IMG/VR virus record: IMGVR_UViG_3300046501_000666 | Span: 1-59,095 of that record | Source of the DNA: a virus | Direction: 5' to 3' (one strand) | DNA: 59,095 nt | Part shown: positions 3,354-59,095 of the stretch, in pieces | How the letters are laid out: each line of letters opens with the position of its first letter | Position numbering within the stretch: position 1 is the stretch's first letter | Notes under the pieces: model-generated | The model's database searches: none | Told to the model about the DNA's origin: nothing | What the model saw: only the letters and a program-made list of their open reading frames with translations | Translations under genes and position numbers: made by a program

Positions 3354-4460
3354 TCAGGCAGCGCGAACCGGAACGGCACGCAGATGAGCTTTTTCATCTG
3401 CTGAGCCTAAGTAGGGTTTCAGCTCTGCGCGGGTGTATTTTCCAGCTTGCACGGTGTCAGTCGTGTAACCGCTGTAGTTGGGGCCGAAGTAGCCGCCACC
3501 GTGCTTGTCGCTCCAGATCATGAATAGCGGTTCATCCTTGGGGAAAAGGATGTCTCGGAGCTTTGCAGCTCGCTCGAAGTCCATGCTCGCTGTCGCTCTT
3601 TGCATCAAACCTTCGATCTTTTTGCGCCGCTTTCCGGCTGTCACGAGTCTGCGCAGATTGAGGGGCTCACTGCTGTAGATGTCAGAGGCCTGGACTACTG
3701 AGTGACCGTATCGACCACTGACTACGAACCAAGATGCATTCAAGTCATAGAAGGCGGTACCCTTGAAGATCCGCTGAGTTTTCCAGTCGTGGTACCAGAT
3801 CGTCGCGCCGTGCTTGATGGTTCCGCCGTCGCGGGCCGTCTCGTTGCTCTTCATGCTTATGCTTGCGCGACCCAGTTCTTCCCGATAATGCCCGGTGGCT
3901 CTGATCGCCTTTTGCATCCACTCCATGGCTGTTACTCGTTCTTTGCCAGGCCCCACCTTGGGATGCCGATCAGGCTCAAAGGTGTATCTGCTGAACACAC
4001 TGCAAAGGTAATCACGCAGCTTAAGGCGGGTGTAATGCATGCGCAGTCGTTGCTGGTAAGTCATCCGCTCTTCTTTGTCGAAGCAGTATTGACCTCCATT
4101 GCGGTTGTCCACATTCTGGACGTTCTGATACATCTTCAGCTCGATGTGACGCCCCGACACGCTCAGCTCCGCTTCAACGTCGCCGTGGCGGCAGTAGCGG
4201 TGACTGCGTGCGAAGCTCATACCGTACCGTTTGATCATCTCTTCGGGGATTATGCAGGTCCAACCCATTCGGTTCAGCTGTTGAACAATCCGGAGGAAAA
4301 CGGCTTTCTTGAACTCGTTTTCCCATGCGCCCATCACCATCCCGCCTGGAGATTCCCAAACGTTTAGGCTGGCATCATTGAAGTGGACGGTTCCGGTGCG
4401 TTCTATTTGCATGGGACAATCTCCATGGCATGCGCCGCCCTCCGTGACCGGATGCGACAT
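3354..4460 (-). CDS. Phage protein with a UVR motif, unknown function
   Basis: 368 aa starting MSHPVTEGGACHGDCPM. Residues about 295-325 (KKIEGLMQRATASMDFERAAKLRDIL) match the UVR motif, the helical hairpin by which UvrB and UvrC contact each other and which also occurs in Clp-type adaptors. The rest has no family I recognise. N-terminal Cys residues and an EAELSVSGRHIELKMYQN stretch look like a folded beta domain. It is divergent from the gene at 4528, and the start codons are separated only by the leader there. It might interact with host UvrAB, but that is inference from the motif alone. Confidence 0.6.
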   Translation of the reverse strand: MSHPVTEGGACHGDCPMQIERTGTVHFNDASLNVWESPGGMVMGAWENEFKKAVFLRIVQQLNRMGWTCIIPEEMIKRYGMSFARSHRYCRHGDVEAELSVSGRHIELKMYQNVQNVDNRNGGQYCFDKEERMTYQQRLRMHYTRLKLRDYLCSVFSRYTFEPDRHPKVGPGKERVTAMEWMQKAIRATGHYREELGRASISMKSNETARDGGTIKHGATIWYHDWKTQRIFKGTAFYDLNASWFVVSGRYGHSVVQASDIYSSEPLNLRRLVTAGKRRKKIEGLMQRATASMDFERAAKLRDILFPKDEPLFMIWSDKHGGGYFGPNYSGYTTDTVQAGKYTRAELKPYLGSADEKAHLRAVPVRAA

Positions 4461-4527
4461 AGTGGCTATTTGGTTTGAGTTGGGGTATTACGGGTGACCG
4501 GCATGGAGCCGGATCAAGGAGAGAAGG
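4451..4527 (+). promoter_or_regulatory. Promoter-leader A with hairpin before the ribosome site
   Basis: Matches 5320-5395 in blocks of identical spacing: GATGCGACATAGT, then GCTA, TGGGGTAT, TGACCGGC, and AGCCGGATCAAGGAG. A hairpin CCGGC-ATGGA-GCCGG (4498-4512) lies just before the AAGGAG ribosome site. The first ten bases overlap the start of the divergent gene. TATTAC may be the -10 box, with no good -35 seen. Confidence 0.55.
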
Positions 4528-5301
4528 GTGAGCGAAGTATCAGCAAATACAGGGAATGACGCAGATGCTAACTCATTTGCGGTTCAAGTATGGGAGTGGT
4601 TTGAACGCTTTGTTTCTTCCTTCTGGGAAGGATTGGGCTGGCCCCACGCAGTACTTATAATCTTTTTAGTGGTTATGTTGTGCTACCGAAAAGAGCTGAG
4701 GGAATTGATTGAGCGAATTCGGGAATTTGGGCCAGGTGGCTTCAAACTCCAGCCTATCTCTTTTCAGAACCCACAGTCAGAAACCGCAGATCTCCCGGCT
4801 TCAGAGTCCTCGGCCGCAACTGCGGTGGTCACCTCTGTGCCCGCTACTGGAGTCCTAGGCGCTCCAATACCTCTCCCGCCGACAATAGTTTTTCCCACAA
4901 TGAAAAAAGATTGTGAAGATGGAATAGCACGCGAAATCCAGGGCATGACAGATGCCGATGCCAAGAGTTATTTAGTTCCTATGCTGGCAATCTCAAGGGC
5001 GATGTGGGTGTTCGAAAGTTGCTACGCGAATATCTATGGCGGTCAGATTAGACTTCTCCTGATTCTGAATCAGAGGCCAGGTAAGGCCGTATCTAATGTT
5101 GAGGTAGTCAATTACTGGACATCGCATCAGGAGCAAATGAAGCCGTATTTAAATCTTTGGACTGCCGATCAATATCTAAACTACCTTGTTCAAAATGGGC
5201 TTGTCACCAAACTCGTTGACTCAATCGCGCTGACGACGAAGGGCGTTGAGTTTGTTCTCTGGCTGACTCAATACGGAAGGTCTCTCGATCGGGGGCTGTA
5301 G
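4528..5301 (+). CDS. Membrane-anchored hypothetical protein (257 aa), accessory gene
   Basis: GTG start after AAGGAGAGAAGG. One membrane helix is visible at about residues 41-56 (AVLIIFLVVMLCYRKE), followed by a basic/charged stretch, a Pro/Ala/Ser-rich linker (about 85-125), and a C-terminal globular part containing a possible winged-helix-like segment (NYLVQNGLVTKLVDSIALTTKGVEF). It is lower in GC than its neighbours and has its own promoter-leader, both signs of a recently acquired accessory gene. No family is recognised. A lysogenic role such as exclusion is possible but unsupported. Confidence 0.6.
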   Translation: MSEVSANTGNDADANSFAVQVWEWFERFVSSFWEGLGWPHAVLIIFLVVMLCYRKELRELIERIREFGPGGFKLQPISFQNPQSETADLPASESSAATAVVTSVPATGVLGAPIPLPPTIVFPTMKKDCEDGIAREIQGMTDADAKSYLVPMLAISRAMWVFESCYANIYGGQIRLLLILNQRPGKAVSNVEVVNYWTSHQEQMKPYLNLWTADQYLNYLVQNGLVTKLVDSIALTTKGVEFVLWLTQYGRSLDRGL

Positions 5302-5319
5302 CGCAGCTGAACATCAATG

Positions 5320-5395
5320 GATGCGACATAGTAGCTACTCAATATCTATTGGGGTATCAAAGATGACCGGCGTGTAGCCGGATCAAGGAGCAGTA
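5320..5395 (+). promoter_or_regulatory. Promoter-leader B, copy of leader A
   Basis: Same block order and spacing as leader A, with hairpin CCGGC-GTGTA-GCCGG at 5367-5381 before AAGGAG. The stem is conserved and the loop is not. It even retains the sequence complementary to the start codon of leader A's divergent gene, although no such gene starts here. A duplication of the whole divergent control region is the simplest explanation. Confidence 0.55.
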
Positions 5396-5647
5396 ATGGA
5401 CATCGACTTTAGCAATGGTCGCTACAACGTTTTCCAAGGACGCATGCCTGGGCAACTTCCAATCGGCCGTATCGACGAAGACGAATTCGTACGCTCAGCC
5501 GCAAACGTGCTGCTCTACCGGTTTGATGGTGAGGAGATGTACGACATGAACGGCAAGTACCTTGGCAGCGCCGAAGAGTCAGGTGACGGAAGGTTCATGG
5601 TCACGGACGGTCAGCATAATTGCTTATTTGTGGTCGTGCCTGACTAG
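5396..5647 (+). CDS. Hypothetical 83-aa protein
   Basis: ATG after CAAGGAGCAGTA. The product starts MDIDFSNGRYNVF and ends CLFVVVPD. It is acidic and probably beta-rich, with no domain I recognise. It is the second gene served by the duplicated leader. It converges on the leftward gene ending at 5648 with no gap. No function can be assigned. Confidence 0.6.
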   Translation: MDIDFSNGRYNVFQGRMPGQLPIGRIDEDEFVRSAANVLLYRFDGEEMYDMNGKYLGSAEESGDGRFMVTDGQHNCLFVVVPD

Positions 5648-14556: not shown

Positions 14557-15393
14557 TCACACCGGCTGTCCATTCCACACATACAGCACGCGAGCCAGGA
14601 TGTGGGTGTCGTCCACTCGGATATCCTCTGGATCGTGGTGCTTGTTGTCGGAGATCATCTTGAACAGGGTTTTACCTTTCTTCTGGAGCCGCTTCACGTA
14701 GAGCATTTCGTCGTGGGAGAAGAGGTAGATGCCGTCCCCCGTGAACTCCCGGATCGTGACGTCGACCAGCAGAGGGTCGCGGTCCTTGATCGTTGGCGCC
14801 ATCGACTGGCCCCAGCCGGTGATCATCTTGAGGTGGAAGTGTTCCTTGAACGAGACGCCCATCTCGCGCAGATGCTTGGGGCTGACCCTGATGTCCTGGA
14901 GCATTTCGGGATATTCGTGCGGGATCTGCCCGCCGCCCATAGCTGCGCGCACGTCGTAGTGAGCGATCCACACCTCATCACCTACTTGGCCAGGTCGCGA
15001 GAAGTCGACAGTGATGACGTTACTGGCAGGGGAAGACTGACCCTCTGCGACCTCAAGTATCTTCCGTTTTTGTTCAGCAGAAAGGCCCCCGGCCTTGTCG
15101 AGCATCTCTTGCAAGAGCTCATTAGTTGATGCGGATCGCTTGACGTCAGTTGGTATCCGCATCTCATCAACGCTGTGTACTCCCTCGTTATGCACGGGGA
15201 GCAGATCGGTAAAGCTGGTGCCGAGCGCCGATGCAATCGTCTGGATATCTGCCAGCGTCGGTTCACGCGTCCCCGACTCGTAGTTGCCCACGCGAGACTG
15301 CGATTTCCACCCGCACGCATCCGCCAGCTGAGCCTGGGAGATGCCTGCCGCTTTTCTGAAGCGCTTGATGCGCTGACCTAAAGATTCGTTCAT
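14557..15393 (-). CDS. cI: CI-type phage repressor with LexA-like autocleavage domain
   Basis: 278 aa. Residues 8-62 are an XRE helix-turn-helix (ISQAQLADACGWKSQSRVGNYE). The C-terminal S24 domain has Ser197 in GWGQSM and Lys234 in LYVKRL as catalytic dyad. The likely cleavage site is in AAMGGG (151-155), with Met before Gly where lambda has Ala-Gly. It keeps the prophage silent by binding OR (15406-15465) and OL (11262-11331), and SOS-activated RecA should trigger its self-cleavage. It is divergent from cro. Confidence 0.9.
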   Translation of the reverse strand: MNESLGQRIKRFRKAAGISQAQLADACGWKSQSRVGNYESGTREPTLADIQTIASALGTSFTDLLPVHNEGVHSVDEMRIPTDVKRSASTNELLQEMLDKAGGLSAEQKRKILEVAEGQSSPASNVITVDFSRPGQVGDEVWIAHYDVRAAMGGGQIPHEYPEMLQDIRVSPKHLREMGVSFKEHFHLKMITGWGQSMAPTIKDRDPLLVDVTIREFTGDGIYLFSHDEMLYVKRLQKKGKTLFKMISDNKHHDPEDIRVDDTHILARVLYVWNGQPV

Positions 15394-36645: not shown

Positions 36646-39600
36646 ATGGATATTGCCTCGCTCGGTATACGCATTGATACGACCGATGCCGCGCAGGCAA
36701 GCTCGGACCTAGACAAGCTCACGGCTGCGGGCGGCAGGGCGGAAAGCTCTGTAAAGGGGTTAGCGGAAAGTGCGGACAAGTTGCAGAAATCCTCGCGAGG
36801 ATCCTCTTTATCTCTAAAAGACCAGGCTAGAGAGGCAGACGAATCTACAGCAGCCTTCCGTAGACTGTACGGCGGAACCACGGCAGCGGCGGCCGGCATG
36901 TTCTCTCTTGAGAACTCGATTAAAAACGGAAGCTTTGTAAGGTCGCTCGCAGCAACACAGGACGCCGATAGGTGGCTTGCCTCACTGACATCAACGACCA
37001 AGAAAGCTGGCTCAGCATTCTTAGATTCAAGCCAAAAACTGACGTACCTGTCGTCAGGTCTAAAGGGGTTGGGTGCGTGGTCCGGCTCTAGTGCTCCAGT
37101 TTTCGGGTCGATTGCCAAGGGTAGTAAAGAGGCGGTTTCCGGGCTCGGGGCTTTCGGCACAGCGACTGTGCAATCGGAAATGTCAGCGAAGGCCCTGCAG
37201 AACGCATTACGCGGCGTTCCGGCTCAATTCACCGACATCGCCGTGTCGCTGCAGGGAGGCCAAGCGCCGCTTACTGTTTTGTTGCAACAAGGCGGGCAAT
37301 TAAAAGATATGTTTGGAGGGGTAGGGCCTGCCGCTAAAGCACTAGGCGGGTACGTACTCGGGTTGGTTAATCCGCTCTCGGTGGCTGCCGCCGCAGTGGC
37401 CACGCTCGGGCTCGCTTACTACCAAGGGAGCGAAGAGCGGGACGCTTATCGCGATGCGTTGGTAACGACAGGAAATGCAGCAGGCACGACCACCACTGCG
37501 CTGGCAGGGATGGCGAAGCAGGTCAGCGCCACAGTGGGCACTACAGGTGCGGCCGCCGCGGTGCTCGCGCAGTTGGCCGGGTCAGGGAAGATTGTTAGCA
37601 GTAGCTTCGAGGAAATTGCTATCGCTGCATTGGCCTTCGAGAAGGCTACCGGAAAGGCTGCATCGGAAACGGTAGCGGAGTTCGCCAAGCTGGCAGACGA
37701 TCCGGTTAAAGCCGTGGTCGCGCTAAATGACAAGTACAACTTTCTCACCGCAGCCGTATTCACCCAGATCCGCGCCTTGCAGGATCAGGGCGATACCTTG
37801 GGCGCTCAGCAGCTGGCCGAAAGCTCCTATGCTGATGCGCTCGTGGAGCGGGCCGGAACCATCACTAACAACCTCGGCGCAGTCGAAACAGCCTGGAACT
37901 ATGTCAAAGGTGCCGCCAAAGGTGCGTGGGATGCCATCCTCGATATCGGACGAGAAGATACGTTCAACGAGAAGATGGAGAAGCTTGAGACCCGACTTAA
38001 GAATCTGCGGACGGCACAATCTGGGCCAATCGTCTTTGATGACAATCCCGATTTGGGGCAACTGGCGGGCGGCGAGAAAGCTGTTCAATCGGACATCACC
38101 ACCGCATTACAGAAAGAGGTCGATGATCAAGCCAAGGCTCGTCAGCAGATGTTCGATGCACTGAACATCCGAGAAGGAGCCAAGGCATATGAGGCGATCC
38201 AGAAGAGCCTTGAATCGACAGAATCTAAGTCGAAGAAGCTGACAAGGGCGCTGCAGGACAATCAGCGTGAGATTGCCGAGGCACGCAAGGCTGGATTTAA
38301 GATCACCGCCGAGCAGGAAGCGGCGCTGGAAAAGCAGACCCGCGACAAATTCAAGGAGTCCAAGAAGGGCGGCAGCACGGCGGTCGACTTAACCGGTTTC
38401 AACGACGCTCAGAACCAACTGAAAATGCTGACCGCTGCGTACGGCAACAGTCAGAAGGAACTGGATGCTCAGCAGAAGGCCGGTCTCATCTCGCTAGAGA
38501 CGTACGCGGCTCAGCGGGCAACGCTCATCCGGGCGGAGAAGGAAGAGGTCGGTAGCGCCTATCAAGCTGAAATTGCAGCTCTTGAGGCTGCTAGGGCCAA
38601 GTCCACCACATCCGGCGCTCAGCGCATTCAGATTGATCAGAAGATCGCTGACGCCCGAACCAGCATGGTCAAGGCTCAGCAGGACGCTGACACCCAGCTG
38701 GAAGTGCTGGCCAACGCCGAAACGGGCCGGATCGAGAAACAGCGTCTCGCGATCAGTACCTACACCGATGCGCTCAACCAGCAGAACGCCGCCTTGCAAC
38801 GCGCCGGGCAACGGGCTGCGGGTGGTGTGGGGCAGGGTGATCGCCAAGCATCGTTAACTGGCTCGCTGAACGGCATCGAGGACCGAGCCAACCAGCAGCG
38901 CTTGGACCTAGCCCGCGACAAGGCCGACAAATCGCGGAACATGAGTGCCGAGGAGTACCAAGCCAAGCTTGAGGCAATCAATCGCAGTGAGAAGGATCTC
39001 GCGGAGACGACGCTTAGCAACTACGAGCAGATGTCTGCCGCGCAAAGCGATTGGCGCAACGGTGCCACGTCGGCGTTCAGCAACTATCTGGAGTCTGCGC
39101 GTGACGTAGCTGGGCAGACGAAAAGCCTGTTCACCAATGCCTTCACCGGCATGGAAGACGCGCTCGTCAACTTCGCGCTGACCGGCAAAGCGTCCTTCGC
39201 AGATTTCGCTAAGTCGATCCTGGCTGATATGGCGCGGATTGCGACTCGCCAAGCATCGTCGAGCATCCTCTCGTCAATCGCTACAACCGCCATAGGGTCG
39301 TACTTTGGAGGGAACGGCACTGCTACATCGGCTGGCTCTACTCAGGCAGGGTATACCGGCACCGACTTATCAAACTTCACACCGGTGGCCAGCGCCAAGG
39401 GCAACGTTTTCGACGCACCGGGTTTGAGCTCGTACTCAAACAGCATTGTCAGTTCTCCGACGTTATTCCCATTTGCGAAAGGTACTGGATTGATGGGGGA
39501 AGCCGGGCCTGAAGCGATCATGCCTCTCACGCGAACATCAAACGGGACTCTCGGCGTGCGCTCCTTGGGCGGAAGCTCTGACTCTGGCGGCGTAAGTGTA

Positions 39601-40106: not shown

Positions 40107-40804
40107 TGGCCGAAAGTATTTATGAGGACGTCCAGAAGCTGGAAGTCGGCCTGTATGTCGAATTGTACGAAATGGATTTGACCCCGCTAGGTGGCGACGT
40201 GTATCTGTTCCACGGGTACCTGCAAGTCGGAAAAATTTACTGGCAGGGAAGGGAGTTCTCGCCTTGGCCGATCAAAATAGACGGCTTAGGCATGACCGGT
40301 GAGGGTCAGCAATCCAACCCGACCCTGACTGTGGGCAATGTCACTGGCTTCATTACGGCACTCTGCCAGACATATCAGGACTTGGTTGACGCGAAGATCC
40401 GGAGACATCGCACGCTCGGACGCTACATGGATGCAGCGAACTTCCCGGGCGGCAACCCAGAGGCTGACCCTGAGGAGCACTTCGCTTCCGACTCGTATGT
40501 CATCGACCAAAAACAGGCAGGGGACAGCGCAACAGTCGCCTTCGTCCTGAAATCTCCTCTGATAGCCACGGACCGGAAACTTCCCGGGCGGCAGATCATT
40601 GCCAACTGCTGCCAGTGGGCAACGATTGGCGGTTACCGCGGCGTCTACTGCGGCTGGACCGGTGCGCAGTATTTCACTGACAAGGATGTCGCTACAGATG
40701 ATCCGTCTAAGGACATGTGTTCGTTCACTTTGACCGGCTGCAAACGGCGATTTGGTGAAAACAATCAGCTGCGCTATGGATCCTTCCCAAGCGCCGGCAA
40801 CTAG
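40106..40804 (+). CDS. L: Tail-tip protein L with iron-sulphur cysteines
   Basis: 232 aa. (A start at 40103 is equally possible.) The C-terminal part has Cys169, Cys182, Cys205 and Cys212, placed as in lambda L, where the cysteines bind a 4Fe-4S cluster. It forms part of the tail tip between M and I/J. Length matches lambda L. Confidence 0.85.
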   Translation: MAESIYEDVQKLEVGLYVELYEMDLTPLGGDVYLFHGYLQVGKIYWQGREFSPWPIKIDGLGMTGEGQQSNPTLTVGNVTGFITALCQTYQDLVDAKIRRHRTLGRYMDAANFPGGNPEADPEEHFASDSYVIDQKQAGDSATVAFVLKSPLIATDRKLPGRQIIANCCQWATIGGYRGVYCGWTGAQYFTDKDVATDDPSKDMCSFTLTGCKRRFGENNQLRYGSFPSAGN

Positions 40805-40813
40805 GTGGCTGAC

Positions 40814-41578
40814 ATGAAACTGAACAAGAAAGTCATAAGCGACATCTATGCCCACGCAGATGCTGAGAATCCCCGCGAGTGCTGCGGTGTTGTCATTGCC
40901 GGGCCTGGTGCACGGCGCTACGTTCCGCTTGCCAATTCTGCAGCGAAGCCCGAGGAAGACTTTCGTATCAGCGCCGAAGCCTGGGCATCCGCCGAGGATC
41001 AGGGCCAGCCGGTTTGCATCGTCCATAGCCACCCAGGCCAATCCGCCAGACTTAGCGGCGCCGACCGGGTGTCACTAGAGGCCACCGAGCTTCCTTGGCT
41101 GATCGTTGAGGTTCGCGAGGGTGTGCCGGCTTCCCATCTGGTGCATCTGCCTACGGGCTACCAAGCACCGCTTATTGGTCGGCCATTCCATCACGGGGTA
41201 TTGGACTGCTACACGCTGGTCAGGGACTACTACAAGCGAGAGATGGGAATCGAACTGCTCGACTATGAGCGGCCTGACAATTGGTGGAACGAGGCCGAGC
41301 ATGACTTCTACATGGAGAAGCATGCAGAGAACGGATTTTCCGAGATAGACGCCTCAGAAATCCAGCAGGGCGACGTTGTCATCATGCAGGTGCGAGCCGA
41401 TAAGGCGAACCATGCAGGAATATATCTTGCCGACGGCAAGCTGAAGACTGAGTCCGATCACCACCCAGCGCCTGGTACCATCCTTCATCACTTGTACGGG
41501 CGGGACTCAAAGAGGGACTTGTTCGGCGGGTACTGGCGGGAAGCGACCCGCCTGATCCTCAGGCACAAAGATGCATAA
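40814..41578 (+). CDS. K: Tail-tip protein K: JAMM and NlpC/P60 domains
   Basis: 254 aa from the ATG at 40814, six bases after AGGTGG (GTG at 40805 less likely). JAMM motif H71-S-H73-P...S81-x-x-D84. NlpC/P60 domain with Cys132 in LDCYTLVRDYY and His in NHAGIYL. Lambda K is needed for tail-tip assembly and may digest peptidoglycan during entry. The tail operon is interrupted after this gene by an accessory block of 4.7 kb. Confidence 0.85.
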   Translation: MKLNKKVISDIYAHADAENPRECCGVVIAGPGARRYVPLANSAAKPEEDFRISAEAWASAEDQGQPVCIVHSHPGQSARLSGADRVSLEATELPWLIVEVREGVPASHLVHLPTGYQAPLIGRPFHHGVLDCYTLVRDYYKREMGIELLDYERPDNWWNEAEHDFYMEKHAENGFSEIDASEIQQGDVVIMQVRADKANHAGIYLADGKLKTESDHHPAPGTILHHLYGRDSKRDLFGGYWREATRLILRHKDA

Positions 41579-41634: not shown

Positions 41635-42063
41635 CTATTCCTTCGCCAGCAGCTTCAGAAGCTTTTCATAGGCCCCTGGCATCTCTGCTTCAAGCTGGGC
41701 AAGCATGTCAGGGTTTTTGTCGTATTTCATCTTCAGGCCCATCGCGAACACCTTGTTGGCGGCGTCACCGAAGCTGAGGCCTTGTGATTCCGCGTAGTCG
41801 TCTATTGCCTTGGCATCGCTTGGCTTGAGCGTGAGCGTGACTTCGCGATTGAAGTCATCTACAGAGTCACCAGCCAAAAATTCAGGAGTTGTACCAAGAG
41901 CTTCTGCGAGCTTCATCAGGATAGCCAGGCGAGGCCGAGCCTTGCTGGCCTCATACCTAGATATCTGAGAAAAGGTTATGCCTATCGCGTCTGCCAGCTC
42001 TCTTTGAGTTAGCTGTTTTTCGGCTCGTGCTCTCGCCAGCCGCTTGCCAAACAATGGATCCAC
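41635..42063 (-). CDS. Second phage repressor: HTH fused to a ribbon-helix-helix-like segment
   Basis: 142 aa. Residues 8-62 form an XRE helix-turn-helix (LTQRELADAIGITFSQISRY). Residues about 73-116 (VTLTLKPSDAKAIDDYAESQ, then a helix) look like an Arc-type ribbon-helix-helix. There is no S24 cleavage domain, so it is not a LexA-type repressor. It diverges from the Arc-like gene at 42196, with palindromic sites between. It probably silences the antirepressor cassette. The start at 42063 has AGCTTCCAGTGG before it, a modest site. Confidence 0.7.
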   Translation of the reverse strand: MDPLFGKRLARARAEKQLTQRELADAIGITFSQISRYEASKARPRLAILMKLAEALGTTPEFLAGDSVDDFNREVTLTLKPSDAKAIDDYAESQGLSFGDAANKVFAMGLKMKYDKNPDMLAQLEAEMPGAYEKLLKLLAKE

Positions 42064-42195
42064 TGGAAGCTCCGTTTTAATACCCTATAAGGCATAAAAG
42101 TACACGCATAGCCGCTTACATGCAAAATAAGCAACAAATTGCTTTACAAAAGCAACAAAGCGCATTAAGGTACGCAAAACACGGAGAGACGCAAC
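42064..42195. promoter_or_regulatory. Divergent control region of the second immunity cassette
   Basis: AT-rich. AAGCAA-CAAA-TTGCTT (42129-42144) is a perfect inverted repeat, and AAAGCAACAAA recurs at 42149-42159. These are likely operators for the repressor at 41635 and/or the Arc-like protein. TATAAGGCAT near 42087 may be a leftward or rightward -10 region. Confidence 0.55.
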
Positions 42196-42363
42196 ATGGC
42201 ATGCGAAGAAAGCAAAGTGGTGGGTGTGAGGATGCAGGTTTCTGTGCAGGCGCAGCTGGCTAAACGCGCGAAGAGTAACGACCGAAGCCTTTGCGGCGAA
42301 ATTCTTCACCGTCTCAAGAAGTCACTTGAGCAGGACTTGGAAAATGAAAAGCAACAGGCATAA
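42196..42363 (+). CDS. Arc-like ribbon-helix-helix repressor (55 aa)
   Basis: ATG at 42196 after ACGGAGAGACGCAAC. VVGVRMQVSVQAQLAKRAKS followed by NDRSLCGEILHRLKKSLEQ is the Arc/Mnt strand-helix-helix pattern, and length matches Arc of P22 (53 aa). It is the first gene of the rightward cassette leading to the antirepressor, the same order as arc-ant in P22. A terminator follows immediately. Confidence 0.7.
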   Translation: MACEESKVVGVRMQVSVQAQLAKRAKSNDRSLCGEILHRLKKSLEQDLENEKQQA

Positions 42364-42365
42364 AA

Positions 42366-42395
42366 AAACCCCAAGCGTTCGAGCGCAAGGGGTTT
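42366..42395 (+). terminator. Hairpin after the Arc-like gene
   Basis: AAACCCC-AA-GCG-TTCGAG-CGC-AA-GGGGTTT (42366-42395). It lies between the Arc-like gene and the antirepressor and could limit antirepressor expression. Confidence 0.6.
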
Positions 42396-42430
42396 CTGGT
42401 AACGAATCCAACTATCAGGAAAGAAACGTC

Positions 42431-43390
42431 ATGGCGAATAATAGCACAGCTGTAACCGTGGACAACCTACCAGCCATAAGTCACGCAGGCCGGCCAGTCG
42501 TAACGACCGCCTTACTGGCAAAGCTGTATGGCTCTGAAGCAGCTCACCTGATCAAGAATTTCCAGCGTAATACAGATCGATTCGTCGCTGGTAAGCACTT
42601 TCACAAGCTGGAAGGTGCAGATCTAAAGGATCTAAAGAACAGCATGTCTAAAAGACATGCTGTTGATGGAACCCCTGAAATCATTGGCTCTAAAGCCAAG
42701 AGCGTGATTCTCTGGACCGAGCGCGGCGCAGCTCGTCATGCAAAAATGCTTGATACTGATGAGGCGTGGGAAGTCTTCGAGAAACTTGAAGACAGCTATT
42801 TCGGCAAAGCCCCAGCTCTTGCAATTGAGCACAAGTCAGAGCTGCTATCCCCAGCACACCAGCGACACATTCAAAACCGGGTTGCCGAGCTGGCCGGCAT
42901 GGACCGCAAAAAATACCCGGCAGTTTGGCGCGGGATCAAAGACCACTTTCAGGTGGGGACCTACAAAGACATCCCGGACAGCCAGTACCCAGCTGTTTGC
43001 GCATTCATGTTGTGCAAGCCGCTCGAGGGTGAAATTCCTACAGCAAGAGTGATCGAGGAGGCAGCGCCGTCGGCCCTTGAGTTGTGGGATTTCAACTCCC
43101 CAATCAGCGCTTTGGCAGCCCGCCGCGACGACATGATGACAATGCGCAACAGCGAGAGGGCGTGGCTGGATGTGTCGCTTCACGACCTGCGTGACATTCG
43201 CGGCGAGGGCACGCCGCTTGAGACGCTTCTTTGGTCACTGGATAAGGCGGGCTTTGATATCGGCGGCGCGTGGTGGGAATTGCGCACGTACCGAAACAAG
43301 CTGCAGGAATTTACAAGCACCGTTCGAGGGCTGAACCGGCTTGTTGAAGATCCTAAGCGCTACGCCGTAAATCCAGCGGGAGGCATTTGA
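42431..43390 (+). CDS. Phage antirepressor, ORF6N-like
   Basis: 319 aa from the ATG at 42431 after CAGGAAAGAAACGTC. An earlier in-frame start at 42326 would read through the terminator and the Arc-like gene's end, so it is rejected. Residues 10-115 (HAGRPVVTTALLAKLYGSEA; FQRNTDRFVAGKHFHKLEG; RGAARHAKMLDTDEAWEVFE) fit the ORF6N regulatory domain. The rest (HIQNRVAELAGMDRKKYPAV...) fits the ORF6C type. It probably inactivates a repressor to favour lysis. Confidence 0.7.
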   Translation: MANNSTAVTVDNLPAISHAGRPVVTTALLAKLYGSEAAHLIKNFQRNTDRFVAGKHFHKLEGADLKDLKNSMSKRHAVDGTPEIIGSKAKSVILWTERGAARHAKMLDTDEAWEVFEKLEDSYFGKAPALAIEHKSELLSPAHQRHIQNRVAELAGMDRKKYPAVWRGIKDHFQVGTYKDIPDSQYPAVCAFMLCKPLEGEIPTARVIEEAAPSALELWDFNSPISALAARRDDMMTMRNSERAWLDVSLHDLRDIRGEGTPLETLLWSLDKAGFDIGGAWWELRTYRNKLQEFTSTVRGLNRLVEDPKRYAVNPAGGI

Positions 43391-43391
43391 C

Positions 43392-43961
43392 ATGGACCTC
43401 CTGACGCTCCGGATTAGCGGCACCTCGCCACTGATGATGCACAGCGATCGACTGGCAAATCCGTTGTTGCCTGAAACCAAGGCTCACAAAGAGCTGACCG
43501 GCAAACGGAAAAAGACGGACGACGACCATTTGGCGATTGCTCGGTCTGAGTTCATCGCGGGCGCGTACTTTGACGAGAAGCTGGGCTTCTATATACCTGG
43601 CCAAAATTTCGACGCAACATTCTGGTCCGGCGCCAAGCTTCAGAAAATGGGCGTCCACTGGAAACGTGGCGCGATGGTGATGACGGACAAGGTAAAACTG
43701 GAGTTCAGCGGGCCTAACACGCCAGCTAAACTCTGGGAGGATACACGGTTCGTTGACTGCCGAGGCGTCAAGGTCGGACAGGCCAAAATCATGCGCTACC
43801 GTCCGATTTTCTTGGACTGGGCGGTGACGCTGGAGGTCGTCGTGAATCCTGACGTTTTGGATGTGGCGGAGGCTAAGAAAGCCATATCAGATGCAGGCAA
43901 ACTGATCGGTGTCTGTGAGTACCGTCCGCGCTTCGGGCGTTTCGAGGTGGCTTATGAGTAA
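43392..43961 (+). CDS. Conserved phage protein of unknown function (189 aa)
   Basis: Starts one base after the antirepressor stop. LTLRISGTSPLMMHSDRLAN, then KELTGKRKKTDDDHLAIARS and ends with GVCEYRPRFGRFEVAYE. I recognise it as a conserved type in phages, without known role. The N-terminal strand with SPLMMH and the C-terminal Gly-rich/FGRF end recall RAMP/ferredoxin-like RNA-binding folds, a weak hint only. It is part of the second immunity cassette by operon structure. Confidence 0.6.
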   Translation: MDLLTLRISGTSPLMMHSDRLANPLLPETKAHKELTGKRKKTDDDHLAIARSEFIAGAYFDEKLGFYIPGQNFDATFWSGAKLQKMGVHWKRGAMVMTDKVKLEFSGPNTPAKLWEDTRFVDCRGVKVGQAKIMRYRPIFLDWAVTLEVVVNPDVLDVAEAKKAISDAGKLIGVCEYRPRFGRFEVAYE

Positions 43962-44412
43962 TCTCGCGCGGCATCCGCTGTGGCGCCAGGCGGTCCAGGA
44001 CTTTATCGCCGAGTTTCAGTACGGCGATATCGTCGGCCACGAATGGCTGGAGATTCGGTTCGGAATGCCCGGGCTTTCGGAGGATCAGCAACTGACTGCC
44101 GATCAGTTCCGGGAGCGTCAATTTGAATGGCTGGCAAATGTCGAGGCCTTCAAGAACGAACTGCTGCGTGACCACCAGATTTGCTTGCAGTCGATTCGAG
44201 GCAAGGGATACCGCTGGGTTCCGCCAAACGAACAGACTGAGTTAGCCGTTGCGGACTTCCATCGGGGAGCCAAGAAGATGTTCAGCTCCGTCGGGCAAAA
44301 GCTACGCCATTTGCGCACCGCCGAGCTGTCAGATGGTGAGCGCCGGGCTAACGTTGACGCCGCCGCGAAGATTTCTCAGCTTCAAGGCATGACCCGAAAG
44401 GCGTTGAACTGA
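43954..44412 (+). CDS. Hypothetical protein, last gene of the cassette (152 aa)
   Basis: ATG at 43954 overlaps the preceding stop by eight bases. MSNLARHPLWRQAVQDFIAE, LRDHQICLQSIRGKGYRWVP, and a C-terminal helical part. IRGKGYRWV resembles the wing of a winged helix, so DNA binding is possible. It is followed by a hairpin (44422-44444) without U-run. Confidence 0.55.
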   Translation: MSNLARHPLWRQAVQDFIAEFQYGDIVGHEWLEIRFGMPGLSEDQQLTADQFRERQFEWLANVEAFKNELLRDHQICLQSIRGKGYRWVPPNEQTELAVADFHRGAKKMFSSVGQKLRHLRTAELSDGERRANVDAAAKISQLQGMTRKALN

Positions 44413-44444: not shown

Positions 44445-44653
44445 TGCAGTGCGAAAGCATTATTGCTCGGTACGCTTCGCTACGGTGCGGTGGGGCAAGG
44501 CTTGATAAGGCGTGTCATGGGCTGAAAACAGCGTTCAGCCACTTCTCGCGAGGTGGTTGAGCGGTGTGAAAGCACTGTATGGCGTGCCGAGGTAAGGTTG
44601 GGCGAGGTCTGGCTAGTCCAGGTATGGTTGGGTATGGGCCGTAAACGGCATTG
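44445..44653 (+). other. Non-coding G-rich low-complexity stretch
   Basis: No gene is seen. Many short GGT/GGC units appear, densest at 44585-44640 (GAGGTAAGGTTGGGCGAGG, then CCAGGTATGGTTGGGTATGG). It ends in a strong terminator at 44654, so it may be the body of a small RNA or an untranslated tail of the cassette transcript. Confidence 0.4.
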
Positions 44654-44681
44654 AAAGGCACCTTCAGGTGCCTTTTCTTTT
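44654..44681 (+). terminator. Rho-independent terminator
   Basis: AAAGGCACC-TTCA-GGTGCCTTT (44654-44675), followed by TCTTTT. Confidence 0.8.
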
Positions 44682-45018
44682 AGCTGTGAGCATTGCAAGC
44701 AATAAACGGCTGTTTCACCCGCCGCTTTCGCCGCCGAATTCGGGTTTTGAATCGTGCGCGTCACAATTCGAAAATATTTATTTCGTGGCGCGGATTCGGT
44801 TAACCATTGGTTTTACTGGGTTTGTTCGCTTTTGGTTTAGCAAAACTCTAACCACAACCGGTTGTGGGTATTGTATAGGGATAGTCGCGCACACATAATT
44901 ACTATGTCACCGGCGTCATCTGGTGAAGGAATGGGTGCAATTGCAGCCCATCCAATCGTTCAGGCGGAGGCAACACAAGCTGTCTGGCGCGCACCAATAG
45001 ACCTAAAGGATTCAGCAT
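44682..45018 (+). promoter_or_regulatory. Control region of the acetyltransferase pair, with 16-bp palindrome
   Basis: AT-rich stretch without a convincing gene. It contains a perfect palindrome CCACAACCGGTTGTGG (44852-44867) followed by TATAGGG (44874-44880), a plausible -10 region. This looks like an operator over a promoter. AAAGGA at 45005-45010 serves the gene at 45019. Confidence 0.5.
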
Positions 45019-45186
45019 ATGTCGGCCAAGCCAAGCATTCAGTCTACCGCACCGCTAAGTCGCGAAGAAAGCCGCGAACTGGTTCGCGCAGTCACGTCTG
45101 TTAGCCTTTCCGAATCGCGCCGCGAGACCCTTTCCGGTTATGCCCAGGCCGCTCAAACGGCCTTTGCAAAGCGCACAGTTCGATAA
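45019..45186 (+). CDS. Small basic protein before the acetyltransferase (55 aa)
   Basis: ATG at 45019 after AAAGGATTCAGCAT. MSAKPSIQSTAPLSREESRE..., a single helical region ending AFAKRTVR. It lies six bases before the acetyltransferase, so they form an operon. Such a small partner could be an antitoxin, though it is shorter than the DUF1778 antitoxins of TacT toxins and lacks a clear ribbon-helix-helix. No family is recognised. Confidence 0.55.
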   Translation: MSAKPSIQSTAPLSREESRELVRAVTSVSLSESRRETLSGYAQAAQTAFAKRTVR

Positions 45187-45192
45187 AGGTCT

Positions 45193-45741
45193 GTGCTAGA
45201 CGACTATAGCCTGGCGTATGTGGGCGAGGTTGATCAGGCTGTTCTCGATCAATTCACCTGCGGCGACGAAGACCTTGACGAATTCCTCAAAAGCGAAGCG
45301 AAAAGCTATGCCGATGCTGGAATTACGTCGACCACGGTTATCTTCCTGAATGGCGACCCAATCCCTATAGGCTTCTTTAGTCTGTCTTCAGACAGCATTA
45401 ATTTGTCTTCCATGGAAGAGTTCGAGCTTGGAATTACCTTTCAGCTGCCGATCCCGTTCTTCCCAGCAGTCAAAATCACTAAATTAGCCGTTCGAGCTGG
45501 CGAGCAATCCAAAGGTATCGGCGAGCAGATGGTTAAGCTGATTCAGGGTATCGCTTATAGCAGTCCAGTGTCAGCGAGGCTTCTTACTGTCAATGCAGTA
45601 AATAGGCCTCGAGCAATCGCTTTCTACGAGCGGTGTAATTTCATTCGAAGCCATCGGAACGACGTTCAGCGACAAGGTCGGCGGCCGGCAAATGAGCCGG
45701 AAACAATTCTTTTCTACAAAGACCTCTATACCGACGATTGA
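45193..45741 (+). CDS. GNAT-family N-acetyltransferase
   Basis: 182 aa from a GTG. Acetyl-CoA-binding motif A at about 97-112 (KLAVRAGEQSKGIGEQMV, with Q105-x-x-G108-x-G110). Further features are NAVNRPRAIAFYERCNF near the C-terminus (motif B). Candidates for the role: tRNA-acetylating toxin, or an enzyme modifying a host protein or defence factor. It is an accessory gene inside the tail operon with its own promoter and terminator. Confidence 0.75.
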   Translation: MLDDYSLAYVGEVDQAVLDQFTCGDEDLDEFLKSEAKSYADAGITSTTVIFLNGDPIPIGFFSLSSDSINLSSMEEFELGITFQLPIPFFPAVKITKLAVRAGEQSKGIGEQMVKLIQGIAYSSPVSARLLTVNAVNRPRAIAFYERCNFIRSHRNDVQRQGRRPANEPETILFYKDLYTDD

Positions 45742-45861: not shown

Positions 45862-46203
45862 ATGCGAATTTTGATTGGGGCGCTGGCTGTGGCGCTGCTG
45901 GCCGGGTGTGCGAGCTCTATGGAAGAGCGGCGGGCGGATAAACCAAGGGAAAGGCTCTCTTCGTCCAAAACTGTTGATGCGGTGTCGCGATGCATCCTAT
46001 TCAGTTGGCAGAGCTATACCTGGTACGGCAGTCCGCTGAATGTGGTATTGCAGCCTAATCAATACGGCGGGAATACCGTCACGGCTGGGCAAACTGATTT
46101 CTTTTCCGACGTAATCCCGAAAGGCAGCAAGACGCAGATCGACTACTACGGGTCTGGGGCAATTGGCAGAGAACTGGCTCCGCTGGTCAAAGCCTGTATC
46201 TGA
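45862..46203 (+). CDS. Small lipoprotein, possible exclusion or cor-like factor
   Basis: 113 aa, ATG after GAGGGAACATC. Signal peptide with lipobox (ILIGALAVALLAGC, Cys17 as the lipidated residue). The mature part contains a Tyr/Trp-rich segment (FSWQSYTWYGSPLNVVLQ). It lies between accessory genes and tail gene I. Phage lipoproteins here often block receptors for superinfecting phages, but no homology shows this. Confidence 0.65.
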   Translation: MRILIGALAVALLAGCASSMEERRADKPRERLSSSKTVDAVSRCILFSWQSYTWYGSPLNVVLQPNQYGGNTVTAGQTDFFSDVIPKGSKTQIDYYGSGAIGRELAPLVKACI

Positions 46204-46261: not shown

Positions 46262-46918
46262 ATGTCTACCAAATCCGCAATGCTTTCACCCGGAGAGCGC
46301 TACAGAGAAATACGTCTCGACGGCGCGTTAGGAAAGCGATTCGGCAAGAGTCATCGACTTGTTGTCGACTCTGCCAGGGAGGCTTGCCGAGCGCTGGGCG
46401 TACTGCACAAGGGCTTCAACCAATACATGGCAGAGGCCGGTGATCGAGGGATTGTGTTTGCCGTGTTCTACGGCAAGAGAAACATCGGCAAGGATGAGCT
46501 TGGCGACCCGCCAAGTCATAACGTGATCCGAATCACTCCCGTCGTGACAGGCAGCAAAAACAGCGGTGGCCTGCAGACCATTATCGGTGTGGCACTGGTG
46601 GTTGCTGCAAGTTACTTTTCTGGCGGGCTTGCTGCGGGCGGTGCCGGTGGCGCTGGGCTGTTTGGAGCTTCCAGTGCCGCCTGGACAGTAGCCGGAACAA
46701 TCGGCCTCTCACTTGCAGTTGGCGGCGTAGCCCAAATGGTAGCCGGCACCCAGGCAGGCTTGAGCAGCTCTGAGTCAGCCGACAACCGACCCAGCTACAA
46801 CTTCTCCGGCATCAAAAACACCATGACCCAAGGCGGACCGGTTCCTCTCTGTTACGGCGAGATGATCGTTGGTTCTGCTTGCGCTTCCCTCGGCATCGTT
46901 GCTGAAGACCAGCAATAA
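46262..46918 (+). CDS. I: Tail-tip protein I
   Basis: 218 aa. An N-terminal beta-grasp part (IRLDGALGKRFGKSHRLVVD), then a Gly/Ala-rich membrane-like segment (about 100-165: IIGVALVVAASYFSGGLAAG...), and PVPLCYGEMIVGSACASLGI, the signature of lambda I. It joins K and J at the tail tip. Confidence 0.85.
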   Translation: MSTKSAMLSPGERYREIRLDGALGKRFGKSHRLVVDSAREACRALGVLHKGFNQYMAEAGDRGIVFAVFYGKRNIGKDELGDPPSHNVIRITPVVTGSKNSGGLQTIIGVALVVAASYFSGGLAAGGAGGAGLFGASSAAWTVAGTIGLSLAVGGVAQMVAGTQAGLSSSESADNRPSYNFSGIKNTMTQGGPVPLCYGEMIVGSACASLGIVAEDQQ

Positions 46919-55069: not shown

Positions 55070-55393
55070 ATGACCCTGGCAGTCCGGTTACGAAAAGAAC
55101 GCAAAGCCAAAGGGCTTTCCCAGCGGGACTTGGCGTTAGCCTGCGGAGTGGGACACATCGCTCAGGGCAACTACGAGAACGGCCATCGTGTTCCCCGGGC
55201 TGACTATCTCTGCAGTTTGAATGCGCTCGGTTTCGATGTGCACTACATTCTTACAGGTGAGCGCCTTCCGTTTGGAGAAGTGCAGCTTTCCGCGTCTGAG
55301 GCCGCAGTCGTTCGAAGTCTACGCTTGTTGGATGAAAAGGACCGCGAGTTGATCCAGCAGCTCCTTGCGACGCTGACCAAAGGTGTGGAGTGA
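55070..55393 (+). CDS. XRE-family transcriptional regulator (107 aa)
   Basis: ATG after AAAGGTGCTGCG. Helix-turn-helix LSQRDLALACGVGHIAQGNY at about 16-40; the C-terminal helical part (EKDRELIQQLLATL) likely dimerises. No protease domain. It is beyond the lysis genes. It may be a phage accessory regulator or a gene of the flanking region. A small membrane peptide gene follows. Confidence 0.7.
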   Translation: MTLAVRLRKERKAKGLSQRDLALACGVGHIAQGNYENGHRVPRADYLCSLNALGFDVHYILTGERLPFGEVQLSASEAAVVRSLRLLDEKDRELIQQLLATLTKGVE

Positions 55394-57396: not shown

Positions 57397-57828
57397 ATGA
57401 ACGTCATCATCTTGGGTCCCTTGAGAGAAGGGGGCGTAAAGCTTCCATTTTATTCCTCAATGATACCGGCCGGATTCCCGTCACCCGCGGCAGACCACAT
57501 TGAACAGAGCCTCTCCCTGGATGAGATGTGCAACGTTCGGGCTCCGCACGTTTACGTGGGAAAGATCCAGGGTGACAGCATGCAAGGTGCTGGGATCTTC
57601 GATGGTGACTTCATCGTGGTTGACCGGAGCATGTATGCCGAAGACGGACATGTGGTCGTCGCAGCGCTCAATTCTGAGCATGTGTGCAAGCGTCTGTACA
57701 TGCGGGACAACATCATTATTCTGAAGTCCGAGAACAAAAAATACCCACCGCGTCATGTGATGGAAGGCGACGAGCTGATCATCTTGGGCGTGGTGAAGCA
57801 TTGTGTACGCGGCATTGAAAAAGCCTAA
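57397..57828 (+). CDS. umuD: UmuD/RulA-type SOS mutagenesis protein
   Basis: 143 aa. Self-cleavage site Ala25-Gly26 in IPAGFPSPA, catalytic Ser61 (GDSM) and Lys98 (VCKRLY), as in UmuD. After RecA-triggered cleavage it activates UmuC (DNA polymerase V). Regulated by the LexA box just upstream. Confidence 0.9.
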   Translation: MNVIILGPLREGGVKLPFYSSMIPAGFPSPAADHIEQSLSLDEMCNVRAPHVYVGKIQGDSMQGAGIFDGDFIVVDRSMYAEDGHVVVAALNSEHVCKRLYMRDNIIILKSENKKYPPRHVMEGDELIILGVVKHCVRGIEKA

Positions 57829-59095
57829 TCCAGTATTTGCGCTCATCGACTGCAACAGCTTCTACGCAAGCTGCGAACGCGTGTTCCGGCCTGATCTGGC
57901 GAAGACGCCCATCGTAGTGCTGAGTAACAATGATGGTTGTGTCATTGCGCGCAGTTACGACGCCAAGCCCTTTGTGAAAATGGGTGCGCCGTACTTTCAG
58001 ATCAAGGACGCCCTAAGTAAGAACGGCGTGCAGGCGTTCAGCAGCAACTATGCGCTGTACGGCGATATTAGCGAGCGGGTCATGACCATCATCGAATCCA
58101 TGGTGCCCGCTGTGGAGGTTTACAGCATCGATGAGGCTTTTGCTGATCTGACCGGAATGCCTGGCGACCTGACCGCATTGGGGCGGCAGATCCGCGCGAA
58201 GATTTACAAGTGCACAGGTATTCCGGTTGGCGTTGGCATAGCTCCCACCAAGACCCTGGCCAAGCTGGCGAATCACACCGCTAAGCGCTTACAGGATAAA
58301 ACCGGTGGCGTCGTCGACATCTGCGACAAGTTCAAGCGCGACTGGGTTTTGCGTAACACGCCAGTTTCAGAGGTGTGGGGTGTCGGTCGCAAGATGAAAG
58401 CCCACCTGGAGGCAATGAACATCCTGACCGCGATGGACCTGGCCAAGGCCGATCCTACGATGCTCGGGAAGAAATTCAGCGTTGTGATCGAGAAGACGGT
58501 CCGCGAGCTTTCTGGAATCAGTTGCCTTGAGATGGGCGAGGACGAGCCGCCGAAGCAGGAAATATGCTCAAGCCGGATGTTCGGGAAGCGCCTGACGACA
58601 ATCGAGCCGATCAAAGAGGCGGTGGCTACCTATGTCCAGCGGGCGGCAGAAAAACTGAGGGCGCAGAACTCACTCTGTAAAAAAATCCGGGTCAGCATCC
58701 GAACGGGCATGTTTAATTCTGAGGAGGCGAAGTACGCCAACGGCGCCCTGATCGAGTTGCCATACCCGACGAACGACGTTCGGTTAATGACCAAGGCTGC
58801 GACCGAGGCTGTCAATCGACTGTTCCGGTCCGGCTTCAAATACAGCAAGGCCGAAGTTCTGTTGATGGATCTGCGACAGCCAGGAGAATTTACTGATGAT
58901 CTTTTCGCGCCATGTCAGCCCCAGGCAGCAGAGAAGGTGATGAGCGTGTTAGATGAAATCAATCAGAGGTGGGGCCGCGGGACGCTACGCACTGCAACCG
59001 TGCCCTCTAACCCAGATTGGGGAATGCGGCGGGAGATGATGAGTCGGAGTTTTACTACAAGGCTCGATCAGCTTTGGACAGTGAAATGCAATTGA
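57803..59095 (+). CDS. umuC: UmuC/RulB, Y-family DNA polymerase V subunit
   Basis: 430 aa from a GTG at 57803 that overlaps the umuD end; a TTG at 57815 (starting KKPNPVFALID) is an alternative. PVFALIDCNSFYASCERVF, NNDGCVIARSYDAK and YSIDEAFADL hold the catalytic acidic residues; the little-finger domain and a C-terminal end with WTVKCN follow. Full length; the stop is the last codon of the window. It carries out error-prone translesion synthesis. Confidence 0.9.
   Translation: MYAALKKPNPVFALIDCNSFYASCERVFRPDLAKTPIVVLSNNDGCVIARSYDAKPFVKMGAPYFQIKDALSKNGVQAFSSNYALYGDISERVMTIIESMVPAVEVYSIDEAFADLTGMPGDLTALGRQIRAKIYKCTGIPVGVGIAPTKTLAKLANHTAKRLQDKTGGVVDICDKFKRDWVLRNTPVSEVWGVGRKMKAHLEAMNILTAMDLAKADPTMLGKKFSVVIEKTVRELSGISCLEMGEDEPPKQEICSSRMFGKRLTTIEPIKEAVATYVQRAAEKLRAQNSLCKKIRVSIRTGMFNSEEAKYANGALIELPYPTNDVRLMTKAATEAVNRLFRSGFKYSKAEVLLMDLRQPGEFTDDLFAPCQPQAAEKVMSVLDEINQRWGRGTLRTATVPSNPDWGMRREMMSRSFTTRLDQLWTVKCN

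Follow-up and report, generated by a model that had tools for sequence, protein, structure and literature searches.

Two described phage systems provide the closest comparisons for the locus reported here. The first is VIPR (Viral Interference Programmable Repeat), which a 2026 preprint describes as a phage-borne system of RNA-guided DNA binding, made up of the proteins Vipr and Vap and of vrRNAs with YNNGG repeats, in which the NN pairs read the DNA with one base skipped and the genes of competing phages are silenced; it was described there in Escherichia phage SUSP1 and in a prophage clade of P. fulva (PMC13142463). The second is the immI region of phage P22, in whose record (NC_002371) mnt runs leftward and is followed by arc, by a 70-nt leftward sar with its terminator over the arc stop codon and its promoter inside ant, and then by ant itself. 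P22 immI is likewise embedded in the late virion genes, with gene 16 on one side and the tailspike gene 9 on the other, and rapid gene flux is known to occur at the ant moron of P22-like phages (PMC2629481). The present locus is a cassette between the tail genes K and I of a temperate phage, apparently of the Pseudomonas type, found in a 59,095-nucleotide stretch of viral DNA (IMG/VR record IMGVR_UViG_3300046501_000666, positions 1 to 59,095; hereafter, the window). We consider it quite probable that the cassette is a moron, i.e., a block of genes that forms a unit of its own within a phage operon, and that it joins a P22-immI-type switch to VIPR RNA-guided interference. Its genes and their flanks are as follows.

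40805-41578: tail gene K, left flank of the cassette
41635-42063, minus strand: cassette repressor of the XRE/HTH_3 type, 142 amino acids, in the place of P22 mnt (Pfam HTH_3, E 2e-16)
42064-42195: control region between the divergent genes, holding two direct repeats at 42129-42146 and 42150-42167 (21 bp apart)
42196-42363, plus strand: Arc-like ribbon-helix-helix regulator, 55 amino acids (Pfam Arc, E 1.8e-7)
42431-43390, plus strand: ORF6N-type antirepressor Ant, 319 amino acids, ATG at 42431 (Pfam ORF6N, E 2e-16; PHROG 1760 anti-repressor, E 4e-53)
43392-43961, plus strand: Vipr protein (RAMP, Cas7/Csm3-like), 189 amino acids, from its PDB profile match and fold
43954-44412, plus strand: Vap, the VIPR accessory protein, 152 amino acids, predicted winged helix and helical tail
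46262-46918: tail gene I, right flank of the cassette

A sequence-only reading of this DNA had proposed a cassette of five genes at 41635-44412, between K and I, and all five open reading frames (ORFs) were confirmed there in the ORF listing; the leftward repressor, the divergent Arc-like protein and the ORF6N antirepressor that it named were likewise recognized by Pfam. The same reading held that the cassette interrupts the K-I junction, and comparison of related loci holding homologues of both K and I supported this. Among 62 such loci that lack vipr, K and I abut or overlap in 10 (-31 to -9 nt), and the remaining ones carry 0.4-3.6 kb of varied other cargo between the two genes; the vipr-bearing junctions are 3.2-7.7 kb long. 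Thus, the cassette is an insertion at a variable K-I hotspot of the tail operon. The same block occurs in Pseudomonas phage Medea1, likewise between K and I, and the order repressor-Arc-Ant-Vipr-Vap was also found at other tail-operon sites, e.g., upstream of the tape measure gene. The cassette extends beyond 44412 to a terminator at 44653-44681, and takes in two vrRNAs and a predicted antisense RNA.

The two genes downstream of ant had been read as encoding unknown proteins. It is indeed the case that neither product has a Pfam, NCBIfam or PADLOC family at a meaningful E-value, that an identity as anti-CRISPR or defence-family proteins was rejected for want of a PADLOC match, and that the PHROG groups to which they belong (4652 for Vipr and 5926 for Vap) carry the label ‘unknown function’; nevertheless, both could be identified. 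A profile search of PDB sequences with the first protein returned a single match, namely 36pp_D, ‘SUSP1 Vipr protein’ (E 4.5e-55). The structure model of this protein, built on a 38-sequence alignment (pLDDT 89), found its best structural matches in the Csm3/Cas7 subunits of type III and type VII CRISPR complexes (Foldseek E 5e-5, VIA Z 10.9). The second protein was assigned as Vap because it matches the product of the gene downstream of vipr in the Felix-type phage wV8 (28% identity, E 4e-13); its model had a pLDDT of 92, and its winged-helix fold matches were weak.

Downstream of vap are the two vrRNAs and the terminator that closes the cassette.

44464-44560, plus strand: vrRNA A, 11 GNY/NN units (44464-44518) followed by the 3' tail GGGCTGAAAACAGCG with a hairpin; ends approximate
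44571-44652, plus strand: vrRNA B, 13 GNY/NN units (44571-44635) followed by the 3' tail GGGCCGTAAACGGC; ends approximate
44653-44681, plus strand: cassette-closing terminator, a 10-bp stem and then TTTTCTTTT; a similar hairpin and T-run ends most arrays

When both strands of the window were scored for the period-5 GNY/NN pattern, the segments at 44464 and 44571 reached 39.5 and 52.5, respectively, against 27.5 for the next best segment and a maximum of 35.0 over 100 codon-shuffled windows. The tails, GGGCTGAAAACAGC in vrRNA A and the one given above for vrRNA B, represent a constant structured 3' tail that is common to most other loci, and in most loci an array ending in it is found behind vipr; vrRNA B continues into the terminator. 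Over the full set of vipr loci that have arrays, the NN unit adjoining the tail is AT or AA in most cases and usually fails to match the target; it is therefore probably not part of the guide and may belong to the scaffold. An ORF on the minus strand at 44480-44764, found again in relatives (cluster c26) and liable to be taken for a gene, was rejected as the antisense of the vrRNA array. In a separate observation, very long GGC- or GGA-based period-5 arrays, some exceeding 20 units, were seen beside divergent vipr genes in bacterial genomes and metagenome-assembled genomes (L101 3548-4150, L102 6643-6900 and L103 3510-4000).

The manner in which these guides may read DNA was examined over the whole family. 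With one nucleotide skipped, 24 of 151 distinct guides matched at two or fewer mismatches (79 matches). With the same 151 guides, skips of 0 and 2 gave none, a skip of 3 recovered only the vrRNAs themselves, shuffled unit order gave one, and reversed order gave zero. Judged by these sequence matches, the one-nucleotide-skip code holds at the level of the cassette family. Targets were then assigned in a set consisting of the window, Medea1 and 13 related phage records (12 of them full or nearly so), early region included, again at two or fewer mismatches. Here, 29 of 144 guides matched, and the identified best targets were the tape measure gene (13), the tube gene (4), L (2), J (2) and vipr (2), a predominance of tail genes that may be partly a matter of sampling, because most of the target DNA had been chosen for nearness to vipr or for matching guide B. 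One guide, from L033, matched ant of rival cassettes.

For the guides that the window itself carries, units 1-8 of vrRNA B correspond to the J codons MVDKWELY, the skipped base falling on the wobble position, and its best agreement with J was 20 of 22 positions, the first and last units excluded. Among the matches listed for these first eight units (a 16-base half pattern), which involve at least 120 contigs, 115 of the 120 scored viral contigs match inside J homologues; moreover, guides to the same J site were found in the cassettes L012, L017, L018, L023 and L029. The best agreement of vrRNA A, 19 of 20 positions with the last unit excluded, was in a Phage_tube_2 gene of the close relative L008, and its last eight units (a 16-base pattern) matched 23 contigs, which is not above a rough chance estimate. 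A reading of target c10 as a P2-like tail sheath was rejected, since Pfam places it in Phage_tube_2. In the window's own DNA, J included, there was no site for vrRNA B within 6 mismatches and none for vrRNA A below 6 mismatches. Overall, the two guide RNAs of the window appear to be aimed at tail genes of competing phages, namely J (vrRNA B) and a tail tube gene (vrRNA A). Guides of related cassettes, for their part, match the window itself, with two mismatches each in the scored stretch: in vipr at 43476 (L030), in the tape measure gene at 37273 (L054) and in the L gene at 40289 (L049).

On the control side, the resemblance to P22 immI that the sequence-only reading had noticed in the gene order proved to go further, as the divergent regulators are shared as well and a predicted sar lies in the same place. 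The two direct repeats of the control region are read as candidate operators because of the P22 layout. The elements of the predicted antisense RNA are given below.

42361-42430, minus strand: predicted sar-like antisense RNA of ~70 nt, starting beside the ant start codon and ending with a hairpin and T-run over the arc stop codon; ends placed by spacing
42438-42465, minus strand: predicted promoter of the antisense RNA, TTGTCC-16-TATTAT, with the extended -10 TGCTATTAT and the -35-like TTGTCC, inside the first ant codons and pointing leftward
42366-42395, minus strand: terminator hairpin of the antisense RNA, an inverted repeat with dG -14.4

Of the 48 distinct leftward terminators in the vipr loci, 29 have the motif TGnTAnnnT at a distance of 40-60 nt on the 5' side of their hairpin, compared to 1.96 expected from shuffling, and P22 has TGCTATACT at the corresponding promoter position. 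An alignment was made of 23 junctions chosen for having this promoter motif, so that the motif is conserved in it by construction; in the terminator stem, four of the nine pairs showed changes on both sides. A covariance model built from these 23 junctions, with P22 left out, recovered the annotated P22 sar with 31.2 bits (E 9e-5 in 654 kb; E 1.9e-6 in P22 alone). When it was applied to 100 sources at E ≤ 0.01, 60 matches were obtained, comprising P22 and 59 of the 94 vipr loci searched; in these 59 loci the element precedes vipr, including loci with an antirepressor of another family. The model matched neither of two other ant loci (Stx phage P27 and RCS47), nor the vipr-bearing phages without ant, and its matches at E < 0.05 over 1.04 Mb of DNA from related phages were all at cassette junctions. 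A search of Rfam returned no sar or vrRNA family, and one weak chance match. To our knowledge, sar-family antisense RNA has so far been known from P22-like phages. The sar-like element is thus, by covariance and position, conserved in the cassette family, and its transcription is predicted.

These findings can be combined in the following model of an antirepressor-plus-VIPR moron. In the lysogen, the leftward XRE repressor together with Arc would hold the rightward operon (arc-ant-vipr-vap-vrA-vrB) low, and the antisense RNA of ~70 nt, transcribed leftward from within ant, would cover the ant ribosome-binding site and cap the level of Ant. Entry into a cell without the repressor, or derepression, would act as the trigger. 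Antirepressors are classic phage tools against resident prophages, and Ant is predicted, from its family resemblance (ORF6N, PHROG anti-repressor), to inactivate prophage repressors, which could be the phage's own cI or that of a resident rival. Vipr loaded with the two vrRNAs is predicted to bind rival phage DNA by the one-nucleotide-skip code and to silence tail genes, J through vrRNA B and the tail-tube gene through vrRNA A. The placement of vipr after ant suggests joint expression of the two, and suggests also that two anti-rival weapons share one switch. Since the repressor and antirepressor vary between loci while Vipr, Vap, the vrRNA format and the sar-type junction stay constant, the family fits a weapon with exchangeable controls that are adapted to the carrier. 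A stronger form of this model, to which we give about an even chance, is that a single immI-type switch governs Ant and RNA-guided interference together as one coordinated weapon against other phages. In this form, the sar-family RNA would control Ant and, through coupling, the whole VIPR operon, and this RNA would have been retained through exchanges of repressor, antirepressor and insertion site.

The coupling is the point at which a first alternative must be weighed, namely that the two halves of the cassette are independent neighbours, VIPR running from its own constitutive promoter as a standing defence in the lysogen and the immI-like part controlling Ant only. VIPR genes do exist without ant: a vipr-vap pair without it is present in LESphi2 and in the Felix-type phage wV8, and a Gordonia phage has vipr without ant beside the gene for a predicted DNA-binding protein. 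It is also consistent with independence that the SUSP1 vrRNAs are, according to the preprint, separate transcripts of ~100 nt (PMC13142463). In the present cassette, however, a gap of 1 nt separates the ant stop from the vipr start and vipr overlaps vap, the sar element precedes vipr in the majority of loci even where the antirepressor is of a different family, and a promoter scan found no second rightward promoter-like site. We therefore regard independence as unlikely. In LESphi2 of the well-studied P. aeruginosa strain LESB58 (L003 7584-9073), it was further observed that vipr and vap (record 4403-5475) adjoin cI, with three vrRNA-like arrays before them.

A second alternative retains the joint action of Ant and VIPR and directs both of them at the lysogeny switch of resident prophages, which would be induced or silenced, rather than at tail genes. 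According to the preprint, 36 guides of the P. fulva clade concentrate on one prophage locus, mainly on regulators of the lysogeny switch, and prophage induction by cI-directed guides was shown (PMC13142463). These published guides count against tail genes as the general target, and several results from the present loci also weigh against the model that we favour. No exact target was found for either guide of the window in 2.9 million viral contigs (20-base patterns), and none for guide B in 398 Pseudomonas genomes at three or fewer mismatches; the best targets keep one or two mismatches even when the last unit (and, for B, the first unit) is left out. vrRNA A adheres imperfectly to the repeat, the second G being present in 6 of its 11 units, and its format is written GNY rather than GGY because this G is often replaced. 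Finally, the leftward repressor is of the XRE type and not Mnt-like, so that the Mnt-type ribbon-helix-helix repressor of immI is not found here; with an HTH_3/XRE repressor in its place, the cassette is called immI-like and not a member of immI. Of these points, the published guides speak for the lysogeny-switch alternative; against it, every identified match in the related phage records, whose early region was included, lies in a tail gene, in vipr or in ant, cI and cro received no match, and the window's guides point to J and a tube gene. This alternative appears to us rather improbable.

A third possibility is a plain second immunity region as in P22, in which lysogeny is governed by the repressor, Arc and Ant, with the two proteins encoded downstream carried along as passengers. 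This was in essence the label given by the sequence-only reading, which contrasted a LexA-type cI at 14.5 kb with a cassette repressor that is not cleavable, and that contrast was upheld: between these two proteins, a Peptidase_S24 domain is present only in cI, Pfam finding none in the cassette repressor.

14557-15393, minus strand: LexA-type cI, helix-turn-helix and Peptidase_S24

The presence of this separate cI, and of a separate cI-like protein in 16 of 20 related vipr-bearing phages, as well as the immI order, fit two separately regulated switches in one phage, a cleavable cI and a non-cleavable cassette repressor. To that extent the label stands; what it overlooks is the VIPR payload. 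The downstream genes are the most conserved part of the cassette (Vipr identity across loci, 57-96%), whereas the repressor type differs between vipr loci and the antirepressor gene before vipr changes its family (ORF6N, KilA-N, Rha+KilAC or AntA); moreover, conservation within the family extends to the vrRNA arrays and to targets that match them. We consider passenger status of the downstream genes very unlikely, and because the operon encodes a VIPR system, an antirepressor-plus-VIPR moron against other phages is the better reading. That the cassette is a decayed, silent remnant, for which the persisting mismatches at the best targets might be cited, is hardly credible, as all ORFs are intact, the regulatory sites, terminators, both tailed vrRNAs and the gene coupling are retained, and the same components recur in near relatives such as Medea1 and L008.

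Other regulators and cargo were noted in the window. A third XRE-type regulator of 107 amino acids, distinct from cI and the cassette repressor, is encoded at 55070-55393, and a UmuD-like S24 protein and a UmuC-like polymerase occupy the right end (57397-59095). Two further features also lie between K and I.

45193-45741: separate acetyltransferase ORF
45862-46203: lipoprotein

A 55-amino-acid ORF and the acetyltransferase, which is of the GNAT type (phrog_1758), together span 45019-45741, between the VIPR cassette and I; they form a separate cargo pair, possibly toxin-antitoxin-like.

The main text of the preprint says little on how VIPR systems are switched on, and it contains neither the word ‘antirepressor’ nor ‘repressor’ (PMC13142463). 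VIPR and immI are each already known; no report of their combination, or of sar in the cassette family, was found in the literature searched, in which VIPR is represented by the main text of this one preprint. The cassette supplies a definite circuit for their control, one that has a thoroughly studied model in P22 immI and includes a predicted antisense RNA open to direct testing. It ties RNA-guided interference to antirepressors, and its readable targets (J, tail tube, tape measure, and rival vipr and ant) allow specific outcomes of phage competition to be predicted. In addition, the sar RNA of P22 is extended to a broad family with a searchable model.

In comparison with the VIPR of SUSP1 and P. 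fulva, the cassette has a homologous Vipr, a downstream Vap, and GNY/NN vrRNAs with a constant tail, as well as one-nucleotide-skip targets in rival phages and rival vipr genes. The features of a VIPR present here include a RAMP protein, an adjacent vap, repeats within the range of 9-16 units (11 and 13) and a structured tail; the one-nucleotide-skip targets are found at the family level, and the window's own guides have no perfect target. As a difference from what the preprint's main text describes, vipr here stands directly behind an antirepressor, in an immI-like switch with a predicted sar and inside a tail operon. With regard to type III Csm3/Cas7, the Vipr model shares the fold; in contrast, sequence identity is 9-14%, there are no cas genes and no CRISPR array, and the preprint places Vipr in a lineage of its own (PMC13142463). 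With P22 immI, the cassette shares a leftward repressor, Arc, a leftward predicted sar ending at the arc stop, a promoter inside ant, and Ant itself, as well as the nature of a moron among late genes. It differs from P22 immI in having an XRE repressor instead of Mnt, an ORF6N-type Ant, and vipr, vap and vrRNAs where gene 9 would follow, and in its site, which is between K and I of a lambda-like tail operon. The cassette is thus the parallel, in lambda-like tails, to the ant moron of P22-like phages.

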